From contig NZ_JAKSYE010000028.1 in the NCBI RefSeq assembly GCF_022829685.1, positions 62,001-126,000 of the forward strand: 64,000 nt of DNA, in the 5' to 3' direction. Below the pieces are notes generated by a model. The model saw nothing but the letters and a program-made list of their open reading frames with translations, did no database searches and had not been told where the DNA came from. This DNA comes from Methylobacterium sp. E-045 (lineage in GTDB: Bacteria > Pseudomonadota > Alphaproteobacteria > Rhizobiales > Beijerinckiaceae). This document shows, piece after piece, positions 1 through 8,461 of the stretch (position 1 is its first letter; the number at the start of each line of letters is the position of its first letter). Made by a program: the position numbers and the translations under genes.

Positions 1-118
1 CAACAGCGGGTTCTATCTCTCGAACGCGGTCGAGCTGGCGCGCCTCGACCCTCCCCCCTCTGCGGGGGAGGGTGGTCGCGGGGCGACCGGGAGAGGGGAG
101 ACGGGAGCAGCCCCATGA
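1..118 (+). CDS. bchM: Mg-protoporphyrin IX O-methyltransferase, C-terminal end only
   Basis: An open frame enters from the left edge and reads NSGFYLSNAVELARL before a TGA at 116-118. The first residues resemble the C-terminal end of BchM, the SAM-dependent methyltransferase that follows magnesium chelatase. bchM directly upstream of lhaA-puhA is the usual order in purple-bacterial photosynthesis clusters. After about residue 15 the frame runs into a GC-rich palindromic repeat, so the last 20 or so residues (Pro/Gly/Arg rich) are repeat-encoded. The stop overlaps the lhaA start (ATGA), which suggests translational coupling. The identification rests on a short peptide plus synteny. Confidence 0.6.
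   Translation, partial: NSGFYLSNAVELARLDPPPSAGEGGRGATGRGETGAAP
49..100. repeat. GC-rich palindromic repeat, copy 1
   Basis: A 24-base palindrome (49-72, CCCTCCCCCC then GGGGGAGGG) is followed by a second small hairpin, GGTCGC (74-79) with GCGACC (83-88). The 49-72 core is identical to the reverse complement of the right end of the repeat at 5692-5827. This copy looks like one half of that longer element. It supplies the last codons of bchM and lies immediately before the lhaA start. Confidence 0.75.
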
Positions 119-1575
119 AACCCGCCGACCTCACCGCCCGCCTGCTCACGCGCCTCGGCCCCGGCCTGATGCCGTTCCTGCCCTTCGCCGATGCGGCGAC
201 GCCGGAACTGCCCCTGGGACGGCTGCTGCGGCTGTCGCTGTTCCAGGTGACGGTGGGCATGGCCGCCGTGCTCCTCATCGGCACGCTGAACCGGGTGATG
301 ATCGTCGAGCTCGAAGTCCCGGCCTGGATCGTGGCGGTGATGCTGTCGCTGCCCCTGGTCTTCGCCCCCCTGCGGGCCCTGGTCGGCTTCCGCTCGGACA
401 CCCACCGCTCGGTGCTCGGCTGGCGCCGCGTCCCCTATATCTGGTTCGGCACCCTGCTGCAGTTCGGCGGGCTGGCGATCATGCCGTTCTCCCTGCTGAT
501 CCTGTCCGGCGACACCACCGGCCCGGTCTGGCCCGGCCATGTGGCGGCGGCGCTCGCCTTCGTCATGGTGGGGGCCGGCCTCCACACCACCCAGACCGTT
601 GGGCTGGCGCTCGCCACCGATCTCGCCCCCGCCCATGCCCGGCCCCGGGTGGTGGCGCTCCTCTGCGCCATGCTGCTCGCCGGCATGATGGTCAGCGCCA
701 TCGCCTTCGGCCTGCTGCTGGCGAACTTCTCGCCCCTGCGGCTGATCCAGGTGATCCAGGGCGCGGCGGTGGTGACCATCGTGCTCAACGGCATCGCCCT
801 GTGGAAGCAGGAGGCACGGCAACCCGGACGCACGGCGACGGACCTGCCGCGCCCGAACTTCTCGCAATCCTGGGCCACCTATGCCGGCAGCGGCCTCGCC
901 CGCCGGCGCCTCGTCGCCACGGGGCTCGGCACGGCGGCCTTCTCCATGCAGGACATCCTGCTCGAACCCTATGGTGGCCAGATCCTGCACCTGCCGGTGG
1001 CCGCCACCACGGCGCTCACCGCCATGCTCGCGGCCGGCGGCGGGGTCGGGCTGCTGCTGGCCGCGCGCTGGCTCAACCGGGGCGGCGATCCGTTCCGGGT
1101 GGCGGCCGCCGGCAGCGGAGTCGGCATCATGGCCTTCTCGGCGGTGATCTTCGCGGCCCCCCTCGCGTCGGCCCAGCTCTTCACCACCGGCGTCACGCTC
1201 ATCGGTCTCGGCGGCGGATTGTTCGCCCACGGCACGCTCACCGCCTCCATGGCGAAGGCGGGACCCGAGGATACCGGCCTAGCGCTCGGCGCCTGGGGCG
1301 CGGTCCAGGCCAGTGCGGCGGGCATCGCCATCGCCGCGAGCGGCATCCTGCGGGACGTGGGCTCCAGCCTCTCGGCATCCGGGGCGCTCGGCGAGGCCAT
1401 GAGCGATCCGTCCGTGGGCTACCTCATCGTCTACCACATCGAGATCGCCCTGCTGTTCGCGACCCTCGTCGCCATCGGACCGCTGGTCCGCGACACCACC
1501 GGTCGTGACACCGCCACCCGCGACAGGGAGGCACGCGCCCTCCTGCCGTCCTCCATTCCCGGTCAAGGAGCCTGA
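115..1575 (+). CDS. lhaA: LH1 assembly / bacteriochlorophyll delivery protein (PucC/LhaA family)
   Basis: A 486-residue polytopic membrane protein of the BCD (PucC/LhaA) branch of the major facilitator superfamily. It is about the usual family length, with some twelve hydrophobic segments. An early stretch FRSDTHRSVLGWRRVPYIW (about residues 92-110) matches the conserved cytoplasmic loop after TM2-3 in this family. LhaA supports light-harvesting complex 1 assembly, probably by handling bacteriochlorophyll. The gene overlaps bchM by ATGA and precedes puhA by two bases, so it belongs to the bchM-lhaA-puh operon. Its place next to puhA favours LhaA over PucC, which normally sits beside pucBA. 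Confidence 0.92.
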   Translation: MKPADLTARLLTRLGPGLMPFLPFADAATPELPLGRLLRLSLFQVTVGMAAVLLIGTLNRVMIVELEVPAWIVAVMLSLPLVFAPLRALVGFRSDTHRSVLGWRRVPYIWFGTLLQFGGLAIMPFSLLILSGDTTGPVWPGHVAAALAFVMVGAGLHTTQTVGLALATDLAPAHARPRVVALLCAMLLAGMMVSAIAFGLLLANFSPLRLIQVIQGAAVVTIVLNGIALWKQEARQPGRTATDLPRPNFSQSWATYAGSGLARRRLVATGLGTAAFSMQDILLEPYGGQILHLPVAATTALTAMLAAGGGVGLLLAARWLNRGGDPFRVAAAGSGVGIMAFSAVIFAAPLASAQLFTTGVTLIGLGGGLFAHGTLTASMAKAGPEDTGLALGAWGAVQASAAGIAIAASGILRDVGSSLSASGALGEAMSDPSVGYLIVYHIEIALLFATLVAIGPLVRDTTGRDTATRDREARALLPSSIPGQGA

Positions 1576-1577
1576 TC

Positions 1578-2351
1578 ATGCCAAGAGGTGAAATCACGGG
1601 CTATGTCGATGTCGCCCAGGTCGTGCTCTACGCGTTCTGGATCTTCTTCGCCGGCCTCGTCTTCTACCTGCGCCAGGAGGACCGCCGCGAAGGCTATCCC
1701 CTGGAGAGTGAGGCGGCCGGCCGGCTCAAGCGCCCCGACCCGATCCTCATCCCGAGCCCGAAGCAGTTCCTGCTCTCCAACGGCCTGGTGAAGACCGCCC
1801 CCCAGACCGACATGCAGCCGGCCTGGAACTACAAGGGCCACAAGCGCGAAGTCTGGCCCGGCTCGCCCCTGGAGCCGGACAGCGACGGCCTGCACGACCA
1901 CATCGGCCCCGGCTCCTACGCTGATCGCGACGACAACCACGACCGCACCTGGGACAACGAGAAGCGGATCGTCCCCCTGCGGGTCGCCGAGCATTTCGTG
2001 GTCCACGAGGACGGCCCGAACCCGATCGGCATGACCGTGTTCGGCGCCGACCGGCAGGTGGCCGGCACCGTCACCGACCTCTGGATCGACCGCGGCGAAT
2101 CCATGGTCCGCTACATCGAGGTCGAGCTCGGGTCGGGCGGGCGCCGGGTGCTCATGCCCAACACCTTCTGCCGGACCGGGCGGTTCTCGCGCACGGTGAA
2201 GACCGAGGCCCTGCTCGCCCACCAGTTCGCCGACATTCCCGGCCAAAAAGACCCTGATTCGGTGACCCTCTACGAGGAGGAGCGGATCATGGCCTTCTTC
2301 GGCGCGGGCACCCTCTACGCCACGGCCGGGCGGCAGGAGCCGTTCCTGTGA
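1578..2351 (+). CDS. puhA: Photosynthetic reaction centre H subunit
   Basis: A 257-residue protein of normal length for PuhA. It has one N-terminal membrane helix (about residues 12-31, VVLYAFWIFFAGLVFYLR). The basic segment RQEDRREGYPLE follows, and then a soluble cytoplasmic PRC-barrel domain. The H subunit caps the L and M subunits on the cytoplasmic side and shapes proton delivery to QB. It lies two bases after lhaA, and its stop overlaps the GTG start of puhB (GTGA). This is the only puhA in the window; its partners pufL and pufM are 30 kb downstream. Confidence 0.97.
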   Translation: MPRGEITGYVDVAQVVLYAFWIFFAGLVFYLRQEDRREGYPLESEAAGRLKRPDPILIPSPKQFLLSNGLVKTAPQTDMQPAWNYKGHKREVWPGSPLEPDSDGLHDHIGPGSYADRDDNHDRTWDNEKRIVPLRVAEHFVVHEDGPNPIGMTVFGADRQVAGTVTDLWIDRGESMVRYIEVELGSGGRRVLMPNTFCRTGRFSRTVKTEALLAHQFADIPGQKDPDSVTLYEEERIMAFFGAGTLYATAGRQEPFL

Positions 2352-3034
2352 GCGGCGCCGCGAGATCCCCCCTCGGCGTACCCGCCAACGCCTTCGACGC
2401 GCCGCCGGGCCTGCCCGCACCGCTGCCGCCCGGCGAGCACATCCTGTGGCAGGGGCGCCCCTGCGCCTTCGGCATCACGGCGCGGGCGCTGCATGCCCGC
2501 CTCGTCGGCCTCTGGTTCGTCGGGTTGGCCCTGTGGGCGGCGATCCCGCCCCTCGGCGAAGGCGCCTTCGGACAGGCCGCGCTTGTGGCCGGTCCGACCC
2601 TCCTCGTCGGCGCCGGCGCGGTCGCGCTCCTCGGCCTCCTCGGCTGGCTCTCGGCGCGCTCGACCACCTACACCATCACCAACCGCCGGGTGGTGATGCG
2701 CCTCGGCATCGCCCTGCCGATGACCCTCAACCTGCCGTTCGGCCTGATCGAGGGCGCGGGTTGCAAGGTCTTTACGGACGGGAGTGGTGACCTGCCTTTA
2801 CGGCTGCGCGGGGGCAACCGCGTGGCCTACCTCCATCTCTGGCCGCATGCCCGTCCCTGGGCCATCACGAACCCCGAACCGATGATGCGATCGGTGCCGG
2901 ATGCGAAGCTCGCCGCCGAAATCCTTGCCCGCGCACTGTCAAGTGCACTTGACACAACGGAGGAAACTGCGACTCCTATGGTGGTCGCGCGGCAGCGGCC
3001 CGTCCGCCCGCCGCGCCTCGCCAACGCGAGTTGA
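2348..3034 (+). CDS. puhB: Photosynthetic complex assembly protein PuhB
   Basis: A 228-residue membrane protein with a GTG start overlapping the puhA stop. Two hydrophobic segments (about 48-70 and 77-98) precede a soluble part containing TYTITNRRVVMRLGIALP, typical of the bacterial PH-like domain seen in PuhB. PuhB helps reaction-centre assembly in Rhodobacter and is normally encoded directly after puhA. The Pro/Arg-rich C-terminal tail looks poorly structured. Function is assigned from family and position. Confidence 0.88.
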   Translation: MSGAARSPLGVPANAFDAPPGLPAPLPPGEHILWQGRPCAFGITARALHARLVGLWFVGLALWAAIPPLGEGAFGQAALVAGPTLLVGAGAVALLGLLGWLSARSTTYTITNRRVVMRLGIALPMTLNLPFGLIEGAGCKVFTDGSGDLPLRLRGGNRVAYLHLWPHARPWAITNPEPMMRSVPDAKLAAEILARALSSALDTTEETATPMVVARQRPVRPPRLANAS

Positions 3035-3052: not shown

Positions 3053-3526
3053 ATGACGGCGAAGGCTGATGCCGCCCGGATTCCGCGACCGCTGGTCATC
3101 GGAGCACTTGGGCTCATGGGGTTCGTGACCGTCGTGGTGGGGGTCGGCCGCAGCGAGGGGATCGGCCTCTCGCACATGCCGCCGGCCCGGATCGTCCGCT
3201 CTGTCGACCTGAACCCCGAGGACCGCGCCGACGGCGCCATCGTCATCAGGGACGCGCGCTCAGAGAACGTCATCGCCACGATCGAGCCCGGCCAGGACAA
3301 TTTCGTCCGCGCCACCCTGCGCGGCTTCGGCCAGGCCCGCCTGCGCGCCGGCCTCGGCCGGGAGCAGCCCTTCCGCCTGACGCGCTTTGCCGATGGCGGC
3401 CTCGAACTCTCCGACCCGTCGACGGGCCGCGCCGTCAATCTCGGGGCCTTCGGCCCGTCGAACTTCGTCGCCTTCACGAGGCTCCTCCCCGAGACGAGGC
3501 TTGCCGACAGCGGAGCCGCCCGATGA
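3053..3526 (+). CDS. puhC: Photosynthetic complex assembly protein PuhC
   Basis: A 157-residue protein with one membrane anchor (about residues 13-31) and a C-terminal domain expected on the periplasmic side. The segment [19 protein letters not shown] and the ending [21 protein letters not shown] match the conserved core of PuhC, which assists assembly of the RC-LH1 core. A Shine-Dalgarno-like AGGGAGGAG lies just before the ATG. Its stop overlaps the next start by four bases (ATGA), giving a tightly coupled puhB-puhC-orf-acsF block. Confidence 0.87.
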
Positions 3527-3822
3527 TCGCGTCGTTCGGACGTCGCACCGTCGAGGTGCCCTGCACCGTCGAGATCGAGCAGACCCCCGAGACGCTCCAC
3601 GCCCACGTGACCCTGGACGCCGCGTTCGAGATCGAACCGGGCGACGAGGTCCAGGTCCACGACGCGCCGACCTCCGTTCCCTACGGCGAGCGCCTCGTGG
3701 TCCGCCGCACCGCCACGGTCACCCGTGCCGGCATCCTGGAGCGGCTCTGGACCCGGTTCGCCGGCCATTTCGAGCTCACCGAACTCTACGAAGTCAGCTT
3801 CTCAGAGAGGAGGCGCCTGTGA
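3523..3822 (+). CDS. Conserved-looking 99-residue protein between puhC and acsF
   Basis: A small soluble protein with no signal peptide or membrane segment. Both ends are coupled to its neighbours: ATGA overlap with puhC and GTGA overlap with acsF. The middle (about 25-60) is beta-rich and acidic, for example [19 protein letters not shown], and the C-terminus is helical. I do not know a characterised function. Small unnamed genes occur at this spot in other acsF-containing clusters. Four-base overlaps on both sides suggest that it is made in step with the cyclase or the assembly factors. A role as a cyclase accessory is inference only. Confidence 0.8.
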
Positions 3823-4910
3823 ACGTCTCGATCCAGCACCAGGCCCCGAAGGCCGTCACGCCGAAGCTGCCCATGAACGAGGGCACCAAGGCCGCCCAGG
3901 AGACGACCTTCCTCTCGCCCCGCTTCTACACCACGGATTTCGAGGAGCTCGACCGCACCGATGTGGAGCCCGTGCGCAAGCAATGGGACATCCTGATCGC
4001 GGAACTGCGCGCCGATCCGAACAAGCGCCACTTCATCCGCAACGAGGAGTTCGACCTCGACATGTCCGGCCTCGACCCGGACCTGCGCAAGGAGTTCATG
4101 GATTTCCTCGTCTCGTCGATCACCGCCGAGTTCTCGGGCTGCGTGCTCTACGCGGAGATGAGGAAGCGCGCCAAGAACCCCGATATCCGCGAGCTGTTCG
4201 GCTTCATGAGCCGCGACGAGGCCCGCCACGCCGGCTTCATCAACGACGTGCTCAAGGATTTCGGCATCGGCGTCGACCTGGGCTTCCTGACCAAGTCCAA
4301 GAAATACACCTTCTTCCGGCCGAAGTTCATCTTCTACGCCACCTATCTCTCCGAGAAGATCGGCTACGCCCGCTACATCACGATCTTCAGGGAGCTGGAA
4401 CGCAACCCGGACCGGCGCTTCCACCCGATCTTCAAGTGGTTCGAGAAGTGGTGCAACGACGAGTTCCGCCACGGCGAGGCCTTCGCGCTGCTGATGCGGG
4501 CCAACCCCAAGCTGACGACGGGCCTCAACCGCTACTGGATCAAGTTCTTCCTGCTCGCCGTCTTCGCGACCATGTATGTGCGCGACCATTGCCGGCCGCA
4601 TTTCCACAAGGCGCTCGGGGTTGATCCGACCGATTACGACTTCAAGGTGTTCCAGATCACCTCCGACATCTCGAAACAGACCTTCCCGCTCACCCTCGAC
4701 CTCGACAACCCGAAATTCAAGGCGGCCCTCGACCGGCTCCTCGTCTGCTCCAACAAGCTCGCCGACGCCAAGGCGCAGGGCGGGATCGTGGGGAGGCTGA
4801 AACAGGGCGCCTGGATCGCGGCCTCGGCGGTGAACTTCGCCCGGCTCTACGCCCTGCCCACCATCGACAACCCGATGCCCGCCGAAATCCGCCTCGAGCC
4901 GGTCTGGTAG
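3819..4910 (+). CDS. acsF: Mg-protoporphyrin IX monomethyl ester aerobic oxidative cyclase
   Basis: A 363-residue diiron protein that forms the isocyclic ring E using O2. Conserved iron-ligand motifs are visible: [22 protein letters not shown] and [12 protein letters not shown], giving the paired E-x-x-H signature. GTG is preferred as the start because AGAGAGGAGG lies directly before it and it overlaps the upstream stop. This is the oxygen-dependent enzyme; no oxygen-sensitive bchE is seen in the window. That agrees with an aerobic phototroph. It lies between a puh-linked small gene and puhE. Confidence 0.95.
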
Positions 4911-4921
4911 GACGCGGGAGG

Positions 4922-5839
4922 ATGGCCGCCCACGCCGTTCCCGCGCTCTACGCGGTGCTGATCTGGTGGTTCTCCACCGGGCTCATCATCCTGCTCGATC
5001 ACCGCCCCCGCCACACCCATCCCTGGAGCATGGCGGCCGGCACCCTGGTGCTGATGGCCGCGCTCTACGCCATCGGCACCAGCGCCGGGGACACCAGCGA
5101 GGCGGGCGCCTACACGGCGTTCACGGCGGCACTCCTCGTCTGGGGCTGGCAGGAGATGAGCTATTACATGGGCTACGTCGCGGGGCCGCGTAAAACCGGC
5201 TGCCCGCCGGCGACGACGGGGTTCGCCCTGTTCCGGGCTGCGGCGGCCACGAGCCTGTGGCACGAGGCGGCCATCGTCGCCGGGATGGCCGGCATCCTCG
5301 CCCTGACCTGGGGCGAGCCCAACAGGTTCGCCCTGTGGACCTACCTGATCCTCTGGGGAATGAACCTCTCGGCGCGGCTCAACATGTTCCTCGGCGTGCG
5401 CAACCTCAACGCCGAGTTCCTGCCCGAGCGCCTCGGCTACCTCGCCTGCTTCCTCAGGAACCGGCGTATGAACCCGCTGTTCCCGTTCTCCGTGGCCGTC
5501 GCCGCCCTGGTGACGATCCTGCTCGCGCGGGCCGCGACGGGGGAGGGGGTCGACGCCCACGAGGTGGCCGGCTTCACCATCGTCACCACCCTGATGGCGC
5601 TGGCGACCCTGGAGCACGGCTTCCTGATGCTGCCCCTGCCCTCGGCGGCCCTGTGGGCCTGGAGCCTGCCGAAGGCCGCCGGCACCCCCAACCCTCCCCC
5701 CTATGCGGGGGAGGGGGCCTGCGGAGCGGGCGGGCGAGGGATCGGCACGGGCTTTTCCGGAGAGACGATTCCCCTCTCCCGCCCCTCGCTCACGCGAGGA
5801 CCACCCTCCCCCGCAGAGGGGGGAGGGACCGCTCTCTGA
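4922..5839 (+). CDS. puhE: Photosynthetic complex assembly membrane protein PuhE
   Basis: A 305-residue integral membrane protein with about seven or eight hydrophobic segments. It starts [20 protein letters not shown] and carries RTKGCP-type and [16 protein letters not shown]-type loops known from PuhE. PuhE modulates photosynthetic complex and bacteriochlorophyll production in Rhodobacter. The natural protein seems to end near residue 257 ([13 protein letters not shown]). The remaining 45 or so residues are Pro/Gly-rich and read straight through the repeat at 5692-5827, so they are repeat-derived. acsF ends 11 bases upstream. Confidence 0.87.
5692..5827. repeat. GC-rich element with 24-base terminal inverted repeats, copy 2
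   Basis: The left end (5692-5715) and right end (5804-5827) are inverted copies that match at 23 of 24 positions. Each end is itself a palindrome of the form CCCTCCCCC..GGGGGAGGG. The 136-base element has the layout of a MITE or paired REP unit. It lies inside the puhE reading frame and supplies its C-terminal tail. The inner left segment (CCTGCGGAGC) recurs in the copy at 7135-7259, which shows that they are one family. Confidence 0.85.
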
Positions 5840-5906: not shown

Positions 5907-7124
5907 ATGAACTACGAAGACTTCTTCGGCGATGCCTTGTCCGGTCTGCACCGCGAGGGCCGCTACCGCGTCTTCACCGATCTCGAGCGTCAGAACGGCC
6001 GCTTTCCCCACGCCACCCACCACAGCCCGGGCGGGCAGCGCCCGGTGACCGTGTGGTGCTCCAACGACTATCTCGGGATGGGCCAGAACCCGGTCGTGCT
6101 CGAGGCTATGCACGAGGCGCTCGATCGCTGCGGCGCCGGGGCCGGCGGCACCCGCAACATCTCCGGCACCAACCATTACCACGTGCTCCTGGAGCAGGAG
6201 CTCGCCGACCTCCACCGCAAGGAGGCCGCCCTCCTCTTCACCTCCGGCTACGTCTCGAACTGGGCGGCCCTCGGCACGCTCGCCGGCAAGCTGCCGGGTT
6301 GCGTGGTGCTGTCGGATGCCGAGAACCACGCCTCAATGATCGAGGGCATCAAGGCGTCCCGCGCCGAGCGCCACATCTTCCGCCACAACGACCCGGAAGA
6401 CCTCGACCGCAAGCTGCGCATGATCGACCCGTCGCGGCCGAAGCTGGTGGCCTTCGAGTCGGTCTATTCCATGGACGGCGACATCGCCCCCATCGCCGAG
6501 ATCTGCGACGTGGCGGACGCTCACGGCGCGCTCACCTATCTCGACGAGGTCCACGCGGTGGGACTCTACGGCCCGCGCGGCGGCGGCATCTCCGAGCGCG
6601 AAGGCCTCGCCCATCGCCTCGACGTCATCGAGGGGACCCTCGGCAAGGCCTTCGCGGTGCATGGGGGCTACATCACCGGCTCGGCCAAGCTCTGCGATTT
6701 CGTCCGCAGCTTCGCCTCGGGCTTCATCTTCACCACCTCGCTGCCGCCTGCCGTGGCGGCGGGGGCCGCGGCGAGCATCAAGCACCTGAAGGCCAGCGGC
6801 ACCGAGCGCGCCCGGCATCAGGAGCGGGTCGCCCAGGTCCGCGCCCGCCTCGACGCCGCCGGCATCCCCTACCTTCCCAACGACAGCCACATCGTGCCCG
6901 TGATGGTCGGCGACCCGGTCCTGTGCAAGGCGATCAGCGACACGCTCCTCGACGAGTTCGGCATCTACGTCCAGCCGATCAACTACCCCACCGTGCCGCG
7001 CGGGACCGAGCGCCTGCGCATCACCCCGTCGCCGCTGCATTCGGACGCCGATATCGAGCACCTGGTCGGGGCGCTGACCGCGATCTGGACGCGGATGGGC
7101 GTGGAGCAGGCGGCGGCGGAGTGA
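5907..7124 (+). CDS. hemA: 5-aminolevulinate synthase
   Basis: A 405-residue PLP enzyme that condenses glycine and succinyl-CoA to 5-aminolevulinate, the first step of the alphaproteobacterial (Shemin) tetrapyrrole route. Hallmarks include MNYEDFF at the start, [39 protein letters not shown], and the PLP lysine in [12 protein letters not shown] (about residue 245). Length is typical. A purine-rich AGGGAAGGGG precedes the ATG. It lies in the photosynthesis cluster between puhE and bchI, so it probably supplies extra ALA for pigment synthesis; a second copy may exist elsewhere. Confidence 0.97.
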
Positions 7125-7134
7125 TGGCAAGAAG

Positions 7135-7259
7135 CCCTCCCCCCATCGCGGGGGAGGGTGCCTGCGGAGCAGGCGCGAGAGGGGGCGACGTTTCCGGAGC
7201 CGGCGCTTCCCTCACCCGACCCGCTTCGCGGGCCACCCTCTCCCGCAATGGGGAGAGGG
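7135..7259. repeat. GC-rich element with terminal inverted repeats, copy 3
   Basis: A 125-base element fills the hemA-bchI spacer. The left end (7135-7158) and right end (7236-7259) are inverted, imperfect copies of the CCCTCCCCC..GGGGGAGGG palindrome. The next bases, CCTGCGGAGCAGGC, match the start of the interior of copy 2. A central GACCCGCTTCGCGGGCC hairpin is also present. It may end or attenuate transcription from hemA, but that is only a guess from structure. Confidence 0.85.
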
Positions 7260-7297
7260 AGATGCGCACACCCTGTCGAGACACCGGGAGACGGCCT

Positions 7298-8461
7298 ATG
7301 ATCCTGAATGGAACGACCCGAACGGTGTCTCCCGGATCAGCATCCCATCCTCTCCCCCGTCCCGGATCACCGGAGCGCGGCGCGAGCCAGGGAATTCTCC
7401 GGAAGCCCGGGGGCGACGAAGCATCCATCGCGGCCCCGGCCCCGCCCGTCACTTTCCCCTTCTCCGCCATCGTCGGCCAGGACGAGATGCGGCGCGCCCT
7501 GATGATCGCGGCGGTGGACCCGTCCGTGGGCGGCGTCCTCGTCTTCGGCGACCGGGGTACCGGCAAGTCCACGGCGATCCGGGGCCTCGCCGCCCTGCTG
7601 CCGCCGATGAAGGCGGTGATCGGCTGCCCCTATTCCTGCGATCCCGCCAAGGCCGCCGGCGAGTGCCCGCATTGTTCCGGCCGCCCCGAAACCCGGCGAA
7701 GCCACCTCGCGCCGGTTCCGGTGGTGGACCTGCCGCTCGGCGCCACCGAGGACCGGGTGGTGGGCGCCCTCGACCTCGAACGGGCGCTCACCCGCGGCGA
7801 GAAGGCGTTCGAGCCGGGGCTGCTGGCCCGCGCCAACCGCGGCTTCCTCTATATCGACGAGGTCAACCTCCTCGACGACCACCTCGTCGACCTCCTCCTC
7901 GATGTGGCGGCCTCCGGGATCAACACCGTGGAGCGCGAGGGGTTGAGCGTCCGGCACCCGGCGAAATTCGTGCTGGTGGGCAGCGGCAACCCGGAGGAGG
8001 GGGAGCTGCGGCCCCAGCTCCTCGACCGGTTCGGCCTCGCGGTGGAGGTGACCACGCCCACGGATCTCCCCACCCGCATCGACGTGGTGCGCCGGCGCGA
8101 CGCCTACGAGCGCGACCCCGCGGGCTTCTGCGCCGCCTATGCCAAGGCCGACCGCGCACTCCAGAAGCGGCTCACCGCCGCCCGCGCGCGCCTGTCCGCC
8201 CTCGACGTCCCTGACGAGACCCTGGAGGCCGCCGCCCGGCTCTGCCTCGCCTTGGGCACCGACGGCCTGCGCGGCGAGCTGACCCTGATGCGCACCGCCC
8301 GGGCGCTGGCCGCCTACGAGGGGGCCGACACCGTGGGGATCGACCATCTCCGGCAGGTCGCGCCGTCCGCCCTGCGCCACCGCCTGCGCCGCAACCCCCT
8401 CGACGAATCGGGCTCCACCGCCCGCGTGGCGCGGGCGGTGGCGGAGGTGCTGGGGTCGTGA
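7298..8461 (+). CDS. bchI: Magnesium chelatase ATPase subunit I
   Basis: An AAA+ ATPase of the BchI/BchD/BchH chelatase, which inserts Mg2+ into protoporphyrin IX. Walker A is GDRGTGKST (about residues 84-92) and Walker B is GFLYIDEVNLL. The GLLARANRG, LVGSGNPEEGELRPQLLDRFG and RHRLRRNPLDESGSTARV segments are also present. As given it has 387 residues, about 35 more than the usual 340-350. The extra length is all N-terminal to the conserved FPFSAIVGQ and has poor coding character. No ATG lies closer; GTG at 7325 is an alternative. The stop overlaps the bchD start (GTGA). Confidence 0.95.
   Translation: MILNGTTRTVSPGSASHPLPRPGSPERGASQGILRKPGGDEASIAAPAPPVTFPFSAIVGQDEMRRALMIAAVDPSVGGVLVFGDRGTGKSTAIRGLAALLPPMKAVIGCPYSCDPAKAAGECPHCSGRPETRRSHLAPVPVVDLPLGATEDRVVGALDLERALTRGEKAFEPGLLARANRGFLYIDEVNLLDDHLVDLLLDVAASGINTVEREGLSVRHPAKFVLVGSGNPEEGELRPQLLDRFGLAVEVTTPTDLPTRIDVVRRRDAYERDPAGFCAAYAKADRALQKRLTAARARLSALDVPDETLEAAARLCLALGTDGLRGELTLMRTARALAAYEGADTVGIDHLRQVAPSALRHRLRRNPLDESGSTARVARAVAEVLGS

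Follow-up and report, generated by a model that had tools for sequence, protein, structure and literature searches.

In this work we have examined a 99-residue open reading frame which lies between puhC and acsF of Methylobacterium sp. E-045, within a stretch of 64,000 nucleotides (the window), and we conclude that it is very probably bciE. Judged by its sequence and its place in the operon, its product is an orthologue of the BciE of Rhodobacter sphaeroides. BciE is known to assist the oxygen-using cyclase, which closes the fifth ring of bacteriochlorophyll, and the original paper on the R. sphaeroides protein is reportedly that of Chen, Canniffe and Hunter from 2017. The gene itself has already been described; the new detail of the present analysis is that some alphaproteobacterial AcsF proteins appear to do without BciE and that two AcsF positions appear to track its presence. 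The original prediction for this frame was that it encodes an accessory protein of the cyclase which does not resemble known ones such as BciE. The accessory role is borne out by co-occurrence with AcsF, gene order, signs of translational coupling and detached bciE-acsF pairs, but the lack of resemblance is not, since the protein is 53% identical to its R. sphaeroides counterpart over 95 residues. The features concerned are collected in Table 1.

Table 1. Features of the photosynthesis operon in the window and detached bciE-acsF pairs of other loci (window positions unless a locus is named)
Feature	Position	Strand	Evidence or remark
lhaA/PucC-family gene	115..1575	+	PF03209
puhA	1578..2351	+	TIGR01150
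puhB	2348..3034	+	NF040894
puhC	3053..3526	+	TIGR03054, 141 bits (cut-off 55)
bciE (very probable), 99 aa, ATG start	3523..3822	+	ORF; 53% identical (95 aa) to the frame between puhC and acsF in R. sphaeroides
acsF, GTG start	3819..4910	+	TIGR02029, 500 bits (cut-off 192.5)
puhE	4922..5839	+	TIGR03055
hemA (5-aminolevulinate synthase)	5907..7124	+	TIGR01821
ATGA, 4-base overlap of puhC stop and bciE start	3523..3526	+	sequence
AGAGAGGAGG, likely Shine-Dalgarno of acsF, in the last bciE codons (...SERRRL)	3804..3813	+	sequence; purine word there in 81/127 homologues
GTGA, 4-base overlap of bciE stop and acsF start	3819..3822	+	sequence; such overlap in 122/126 clusters
acsF codon Asp143, best separator of AcsF with and without BciE	4245..4247	+	AcsF column ranking
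acsF codon Phe262, second such position	4602..4604	+	AcsF column ranking
Detached bciE-acsF	L269 about 6794-8220	-	MAG labelled Gammaproteobacteria
Detached bciE-acsF	L270 1-1539		MAG labelled Gammaproteobacteria; starts at contig end
Detached bciE-acsF	L271 5964-7303		MAG labelled Alphaproteobacteria; beside FAD-dependent oxidoreductase

The photosynthesis genes of the window, from lhaA to hemA, all lie on the plus strand. A near-palindromic element like CCTCCCCCGCAGAGGGGGGAGG occurs at 50-71, 5693-5714 and 5805-5826, with at most 3 mismatches to the search pattern and against an expectation of 0.01, and the latter two copies fall within a C-terminal extension of puhE past the family model. 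Outside the window the genome also encodes a BchE-family protein (G000:C110:40048-41403), which scores just above the cut-off of its model (TIGR02026, 520 bits against 481) and lies on a contig other than that of the photosynthesis cluster.

The identification as BciE depends on a genome, G437, whose PuhA is identical over 250 residues (100%) to a solved reaction-centre H chain, which we take to be that of R. sphaeroides; on this sequence match G437 was taken to be R. sphaeroides. Its puhC is followed by 21 bases, then by a frame of 98 amino acids and then by acsF, and the window protein matches the product of this frame with an E value of 1e-32. Like the window frame, it overlaps acsF by four bases, whereas the puhC junction differs, being a four-base overlap in the window and the 21-base gap in R. 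sphaeroides. The R. sphaeroides bciE is presumably rsp_6110, adjoining acsF, and our equating of BciE with this locus rests on that designation, on gene order and on one published operon. In the latter, the order puhA-puhBC-bciE-acsF-puhE is given for most Myxococcota phototrophs in the excerpt of PMC10576062, and the window gene stands in the same place, after puhC and directly before acsF. The R. sphaeroides acsF is rsp_0294 in the excerpted text of PMC4944227. According to the available passages of PMC7319587, alphaproteobacterial AcsF 'requires BciE', and those of PMC13297055 and PMC7242693 concur; the function of BciE in Methylobacterium sp. E-045 is inferred from this published cyclase work. 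Neither the window frame nor its family matched a Pfam or NCBIfam model at or above the cut-off, and sequence searches of the PDB with both likewise gave no match that reached it. Nine intact homologues in plasmid records carry the label 'hypothetical protein'; this gene, for which the Pfam and NCBIfam copies searched hold no model, can now be named, and our alignments A1-A3 are material for a BciE family model.

How closely does BciE follow AcsF across genomes? A phylogenetic profile against AcsF, which had been proposed as a check, bears out their association: in a sample of 385 alphaproteobacterial genomes, BciE was found in 23 of the 27 with AcsF and in none of the 358 without it, with at most 13 candidate stretches scored per genome, so that the absence from the 358 falls slightly short of an exhaustive result. 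In the family of G437, PuhA was present in 83 of 198 genomes; the readable sequence reached acsF in 79 of them (the contig ended earlier in 4), and bciE stood directly before acsF in all 79. One of these, L098, is a draft genome with a shortened bciE of 55 amino acids and a puhA that is likewise broken. Another genome of this family (G443) holds two puhA-puhB sets on separate contigs (L092 and L093), the second puhA sharing only 35% identity with that of R. sphaeroides. Plasmid records with acsF numbered 11, of which 10 were alphaproteobacterial; an intact bciE adjoined acsF in nine of these 10, and in the tenth, from Sulfitobacter THAF37, the two genes lie side by side but both are decayed. 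The eleventh record belongs to a cyanobacterium and is without bciE. In the family f193, which lies outside Alphaproteobacteria and which we take to be betaproteobacterial because of its place in the AcsF tree, AcsF was present in 20 of 120 genomes and BciE in none of those 20 at an E value of 0.001 (best 0.012).

Could the frame nevertheless encode a PuhC or reaction-centre assembly factor which merely adjoins acsF? It overlaps puhC by four bases in the window and belongs to the puh operon in almost every cluster read, which would suit such a role; operons without acsF are where the two readings part. All 25 genomes of the class sample with PufM above the cut-off had AcsF, so the comparison was moved to named puh operons, found by a scan with a purple-sulphur PuhA; the counts in this and the following paragraph refer to the best 80 of 523 confirmed relatives. 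From puhC to puhE 73 of these loci were readable, seven (L190, L195, L220, L225, L242, L250 and L261) being dropped for contig ends or an unrecognised PuhC, and L242, L250 and L261 among the dropped do have BciE. Both acsF and bciE were present in 25 of the 73 (23 alphaproteobacterial, one unplaced and one in a MAG labelled Anaerolineae), acsF alone in 21 (six alpha-, six beta- and six gammaproteobacterial, three unplaced), neither in 27 (21 gamma- and three alphaproteobacterial, three unplaced) and bciE alone in none. None of the 12 beta- and gammaproteobacterial operons with acsF contained bciE. The outcome that the original prediction had named as contrary to a role with the cyclase, equal presence in acsF-less clusters, was not seen: all 27 acsF-less operons have puhC and none carries a homologue of the window frame, nor was a bciE remnant seen between puhC and puhE in the three alphaproteobacterial ones. 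The MAG labelled Anaerolineae (L252) has an alphaproteobacterial-type puh operon and an AcsF that hardly differs from the G148 protein, and is probably a case of a misplaced contig.

We also searched for BciE throughout the 48 genomes of this set (best 80 of 523) whose puh operon lacks bciE, and both positive controls were recovered. None was found elsewhere in the 21 genomes whose operon has acsF only. Three of the 27 genomes with an acsF-less operon did contain BciE elsewhere, at E values below 1e-29, and three more gave matches at the level of chance (E 0.04-0.10). In each of the three positive genomes (L269, L270 and L271), acsF comes directly after bciE, outside the puh operon. All three pairs come from MAGs, and one starts 88 bases past a contig end. 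No match to PuhA, PuhB, PuhC or PuhE was found on the stretches flanking the pairs, the upstream side being readable in L269 and L271 only. Detached acsF was found in seven of 22 searched genomes with an acsF-less operon (the 27 less L186, L187, L188, L197 and L227), three with bciE and four without, and none of the 15 genomes wholly without AcsF had BciE. The three detached pairs, together with the absence of BciE from the 27 acsF-less operons and from these 15 genomes, argue that BciE goes with AcsF and not with PuhC, and we therefore consider the assembly-factor reading very improbable. In both L269 and L270, bciE is followed by acsF, then by a repetitive protein of no known family and then by PucC, which is 80% identical between them. 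There are two related copies of the repetitive protein in L269 (3076-4407 and 4868-6478, minus strand) and one in L270 (1564-2895), which are 48-49% identical over 290 residues and built of units like TRSFGFxMLSxxATPxSSFFG; the members scanned matched no Pfam or NCBIfam model. The four detached acsF genes without bciE are those of L273, L275, L276 and L277 (genomes G1075, G1073, G1068 and G1066).

The junctions of the gene speak for a close link to acsF as well. Four-base overlaps had been noted on both sides of the frame, and both are real: the puhC stop TGA at 3524-3526 shares four bases with the ATG at 3523-3525, and the stop TGA of the frame at 3820-3822 shares four with the acsF GTG at 3819-3821. 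Homologous frames of about 98 amino acids occupy the same position in the majority of the alphaproteobacterial acsF clusters examined, which argues that the frame is more than a product of chance. Our set of homologues came from 143 loci, of which seven were left out (three with no start codon in reach, four truncated where the locus ends); merging of identical proteins then gave 127 distinct homologues, one of them without acsF in its locus. The acsF start, in the acsF frame, overlaps the bciE stop by four bases in 122 of the remaining 126, and of the four others three end in TAA and one is a broken gene. In 81 of the 127 homologues, bciE contains a purine word of the Shine-Dalgarno type between -17 and -5 relative to the acsF start, against 0 to 3 of 127 at five control offsets within bciE. 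We regard the overlap and this putative ribosome-binding site as signs of translational coupling.

It might be asked whether the frame does nothing but couple the translation of acsF, its protein having no role, as the Shine-Dalgarno word in its last codons and the conserved overlap would allow. We see very little chance of this, since in alignment A2 (121 homologues, 39-92% identical to the window protein) five columns are invariant (G40, D41, A69, L88 and F93) and 19 more are conserved in at least 90% of the proteins (M1, C14, L25, A27, H28, V29, P39, V43, V45, G47, G55, R62, A64, R68, W76, T77, E87, E90 and S92), spread along the whole length and not at the C-terminus alone, and since BciE is reported in the excerpted text of PMC7319587 as required by alphaproteobacterial AcsF. 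It is hardly more plausible that BciE is a homologue of Ycf54. The two are of similar size and have the same role, but the Ycf54 domain PF10674 was absent from the Pfam matches of the window protein up to an E value of 10 and from those of 28 family members up to 0.1, and a PDB profile search brought up no Ycf54 entry up to an E value of 10. An AlphaFold model of BciE (m075a7f22c330, predicted from A2 minus nine plasmid rows) has four strands and one helix at middling confidence (pLDDT 78.9, pTM 0.60). A Foldseek search with this model gave no match at an E value of 0.001, and the best Z score, 3.6 to tailspike proteins, does not point to a convincing relative in the PDB; this is no proof of a new fold, nor does it speak for or against that of Ycf54. 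A TOBE domain (PF03459) was also considered, but the window protein reaches 18.0 bits against a cut-off of 22.3 and only 2 of 28 family members match at an E value of 0.1; these and the S1/OB-like matches are weak and were treated as chance.

Not every alphaproteobacterial AcsF comes with BciE. In the passages available from PMC7319587 and PMC13297055, the requirement for BciE is assigned to Alphaproteobacteria as a whole. In our class sample, four of the 27 genomes with AcsF (G091, G123, G128 and G065) had no BciE in a genome-wide search (best E 0.05), nor did such a search find it for six of the 29 named alphaproteobacterial operons with acsF from the best 80 of 523 (L201, L202, L203 (Pelagibius MAGs), L205, L223 and L228). 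Eight of these ten loci have hemA downstream of puhE, as against none of 33 beta- or gammaproteobacterial loci (best 80 of 523), and for this reason the eight look like resident alphaproteobacterial operons. The AcsF proteins of the BciE-less alphaproteobacteria appear mostly to group with the beta/gamma type. The AcsF tree was built from 91 of 200 AcsF, namely every alphaproteobacterial one without BciE and a choice of the others, including nine of the 20 of f193; four fragments of AcsF were excluded from tree building. Leaving the cyanobacterial outgroup aside, its 90 rows show three changes of BciE state, and 33 of the 34 BciE-less AcsF fall in two groups (six rows, support 98, and 27 rows, support 92). 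The AcsF of G123 stands among BciE-bearing alphaproteobacterial AcsF with a support of 90, not starred, and a smaller tree did not resolve its placement. Because the root is a single cyanobacterial row on a very long branch and hence unsafe, the tree does not decide between gain and loss of BciE. The excerpts of four relevant papers among the literature matches listed make no mention of exceptions to the alphaproteobacterial requirement, which may nevertheless be in print.

When the columns of AcsF, G123 excluded, were ordered by their power to separate proteins with and without BciE, two positions stood out. Position 143 carries an acidic residue, D or E, in 152 of 154 AcsF with BciE and in one of 44 without, and position 262 is F in 153 of 154 and in two of 44, respectively. 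The AcsF of G123 has K143 and L262, the BciE-less state, and among the 15 best columns departs from the BciE-bearing state at one other, 156. All seven detached AcsF obey the rule; they fall in two phylogenetic classes and lend it weak independent support. L223 contradicts the rule, with E143 and F262 and no BciE found in its MAG, while L209 has F262 without BciE and three BciE-bearing AcsF (L009, L148 and L259) depart at one position. A test by independent pairs yielded one supported pair (four with unsupported branches), too few to reach significance, and common descent accounts for much of the separation. In the sequences compared, D/E143 and F262 appear to go closely with the presence of BciE, one genome being contrary.

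We propose that BciE would be made in step with AcsF. More tentatively, it might dock on a face of AcsF which includes Asp/Glu143, just after the diiron-site ExxH motif (EARH), and Phe262. A search for a solved structure for the window AcsF gave no sequence match at an E value of 0.01. A further, rather doubtful possibility is that a small patch around 143 and 262 determines whether AcsF depends on BciE, that bciE-acsF is a two-gene cassette mobile between lineages without the puh operon, and that some members of the AcsF-only class are resident alphaproteobacterial lineages which lost BciE, the acidic 143 and Phe262 being replaced as dependence was lost. The two positions, the natural BciE-free alphaproteobacterial enzymes and the stand-alone pairs make the action of BciE on AcsF experimentally approachable, and all three may serve specialists.

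The AcsF-only cyclases of the Rubrivivax gelatinosus type have the same puh operon order, but without bciE. In oxygenic phototrophs, that is cyanobacteria, algae and plants, AcsF likewise works with a small auxiliary protein, Ycf54, and by analogy BciE may bind AcsF and allow or stabilise the active diiron enzyme. Ycf54 has no sequence match to BciE that we could find and occurs with another AcsF lineage; it is in their role beside the cyclase that the two proteins are alike.
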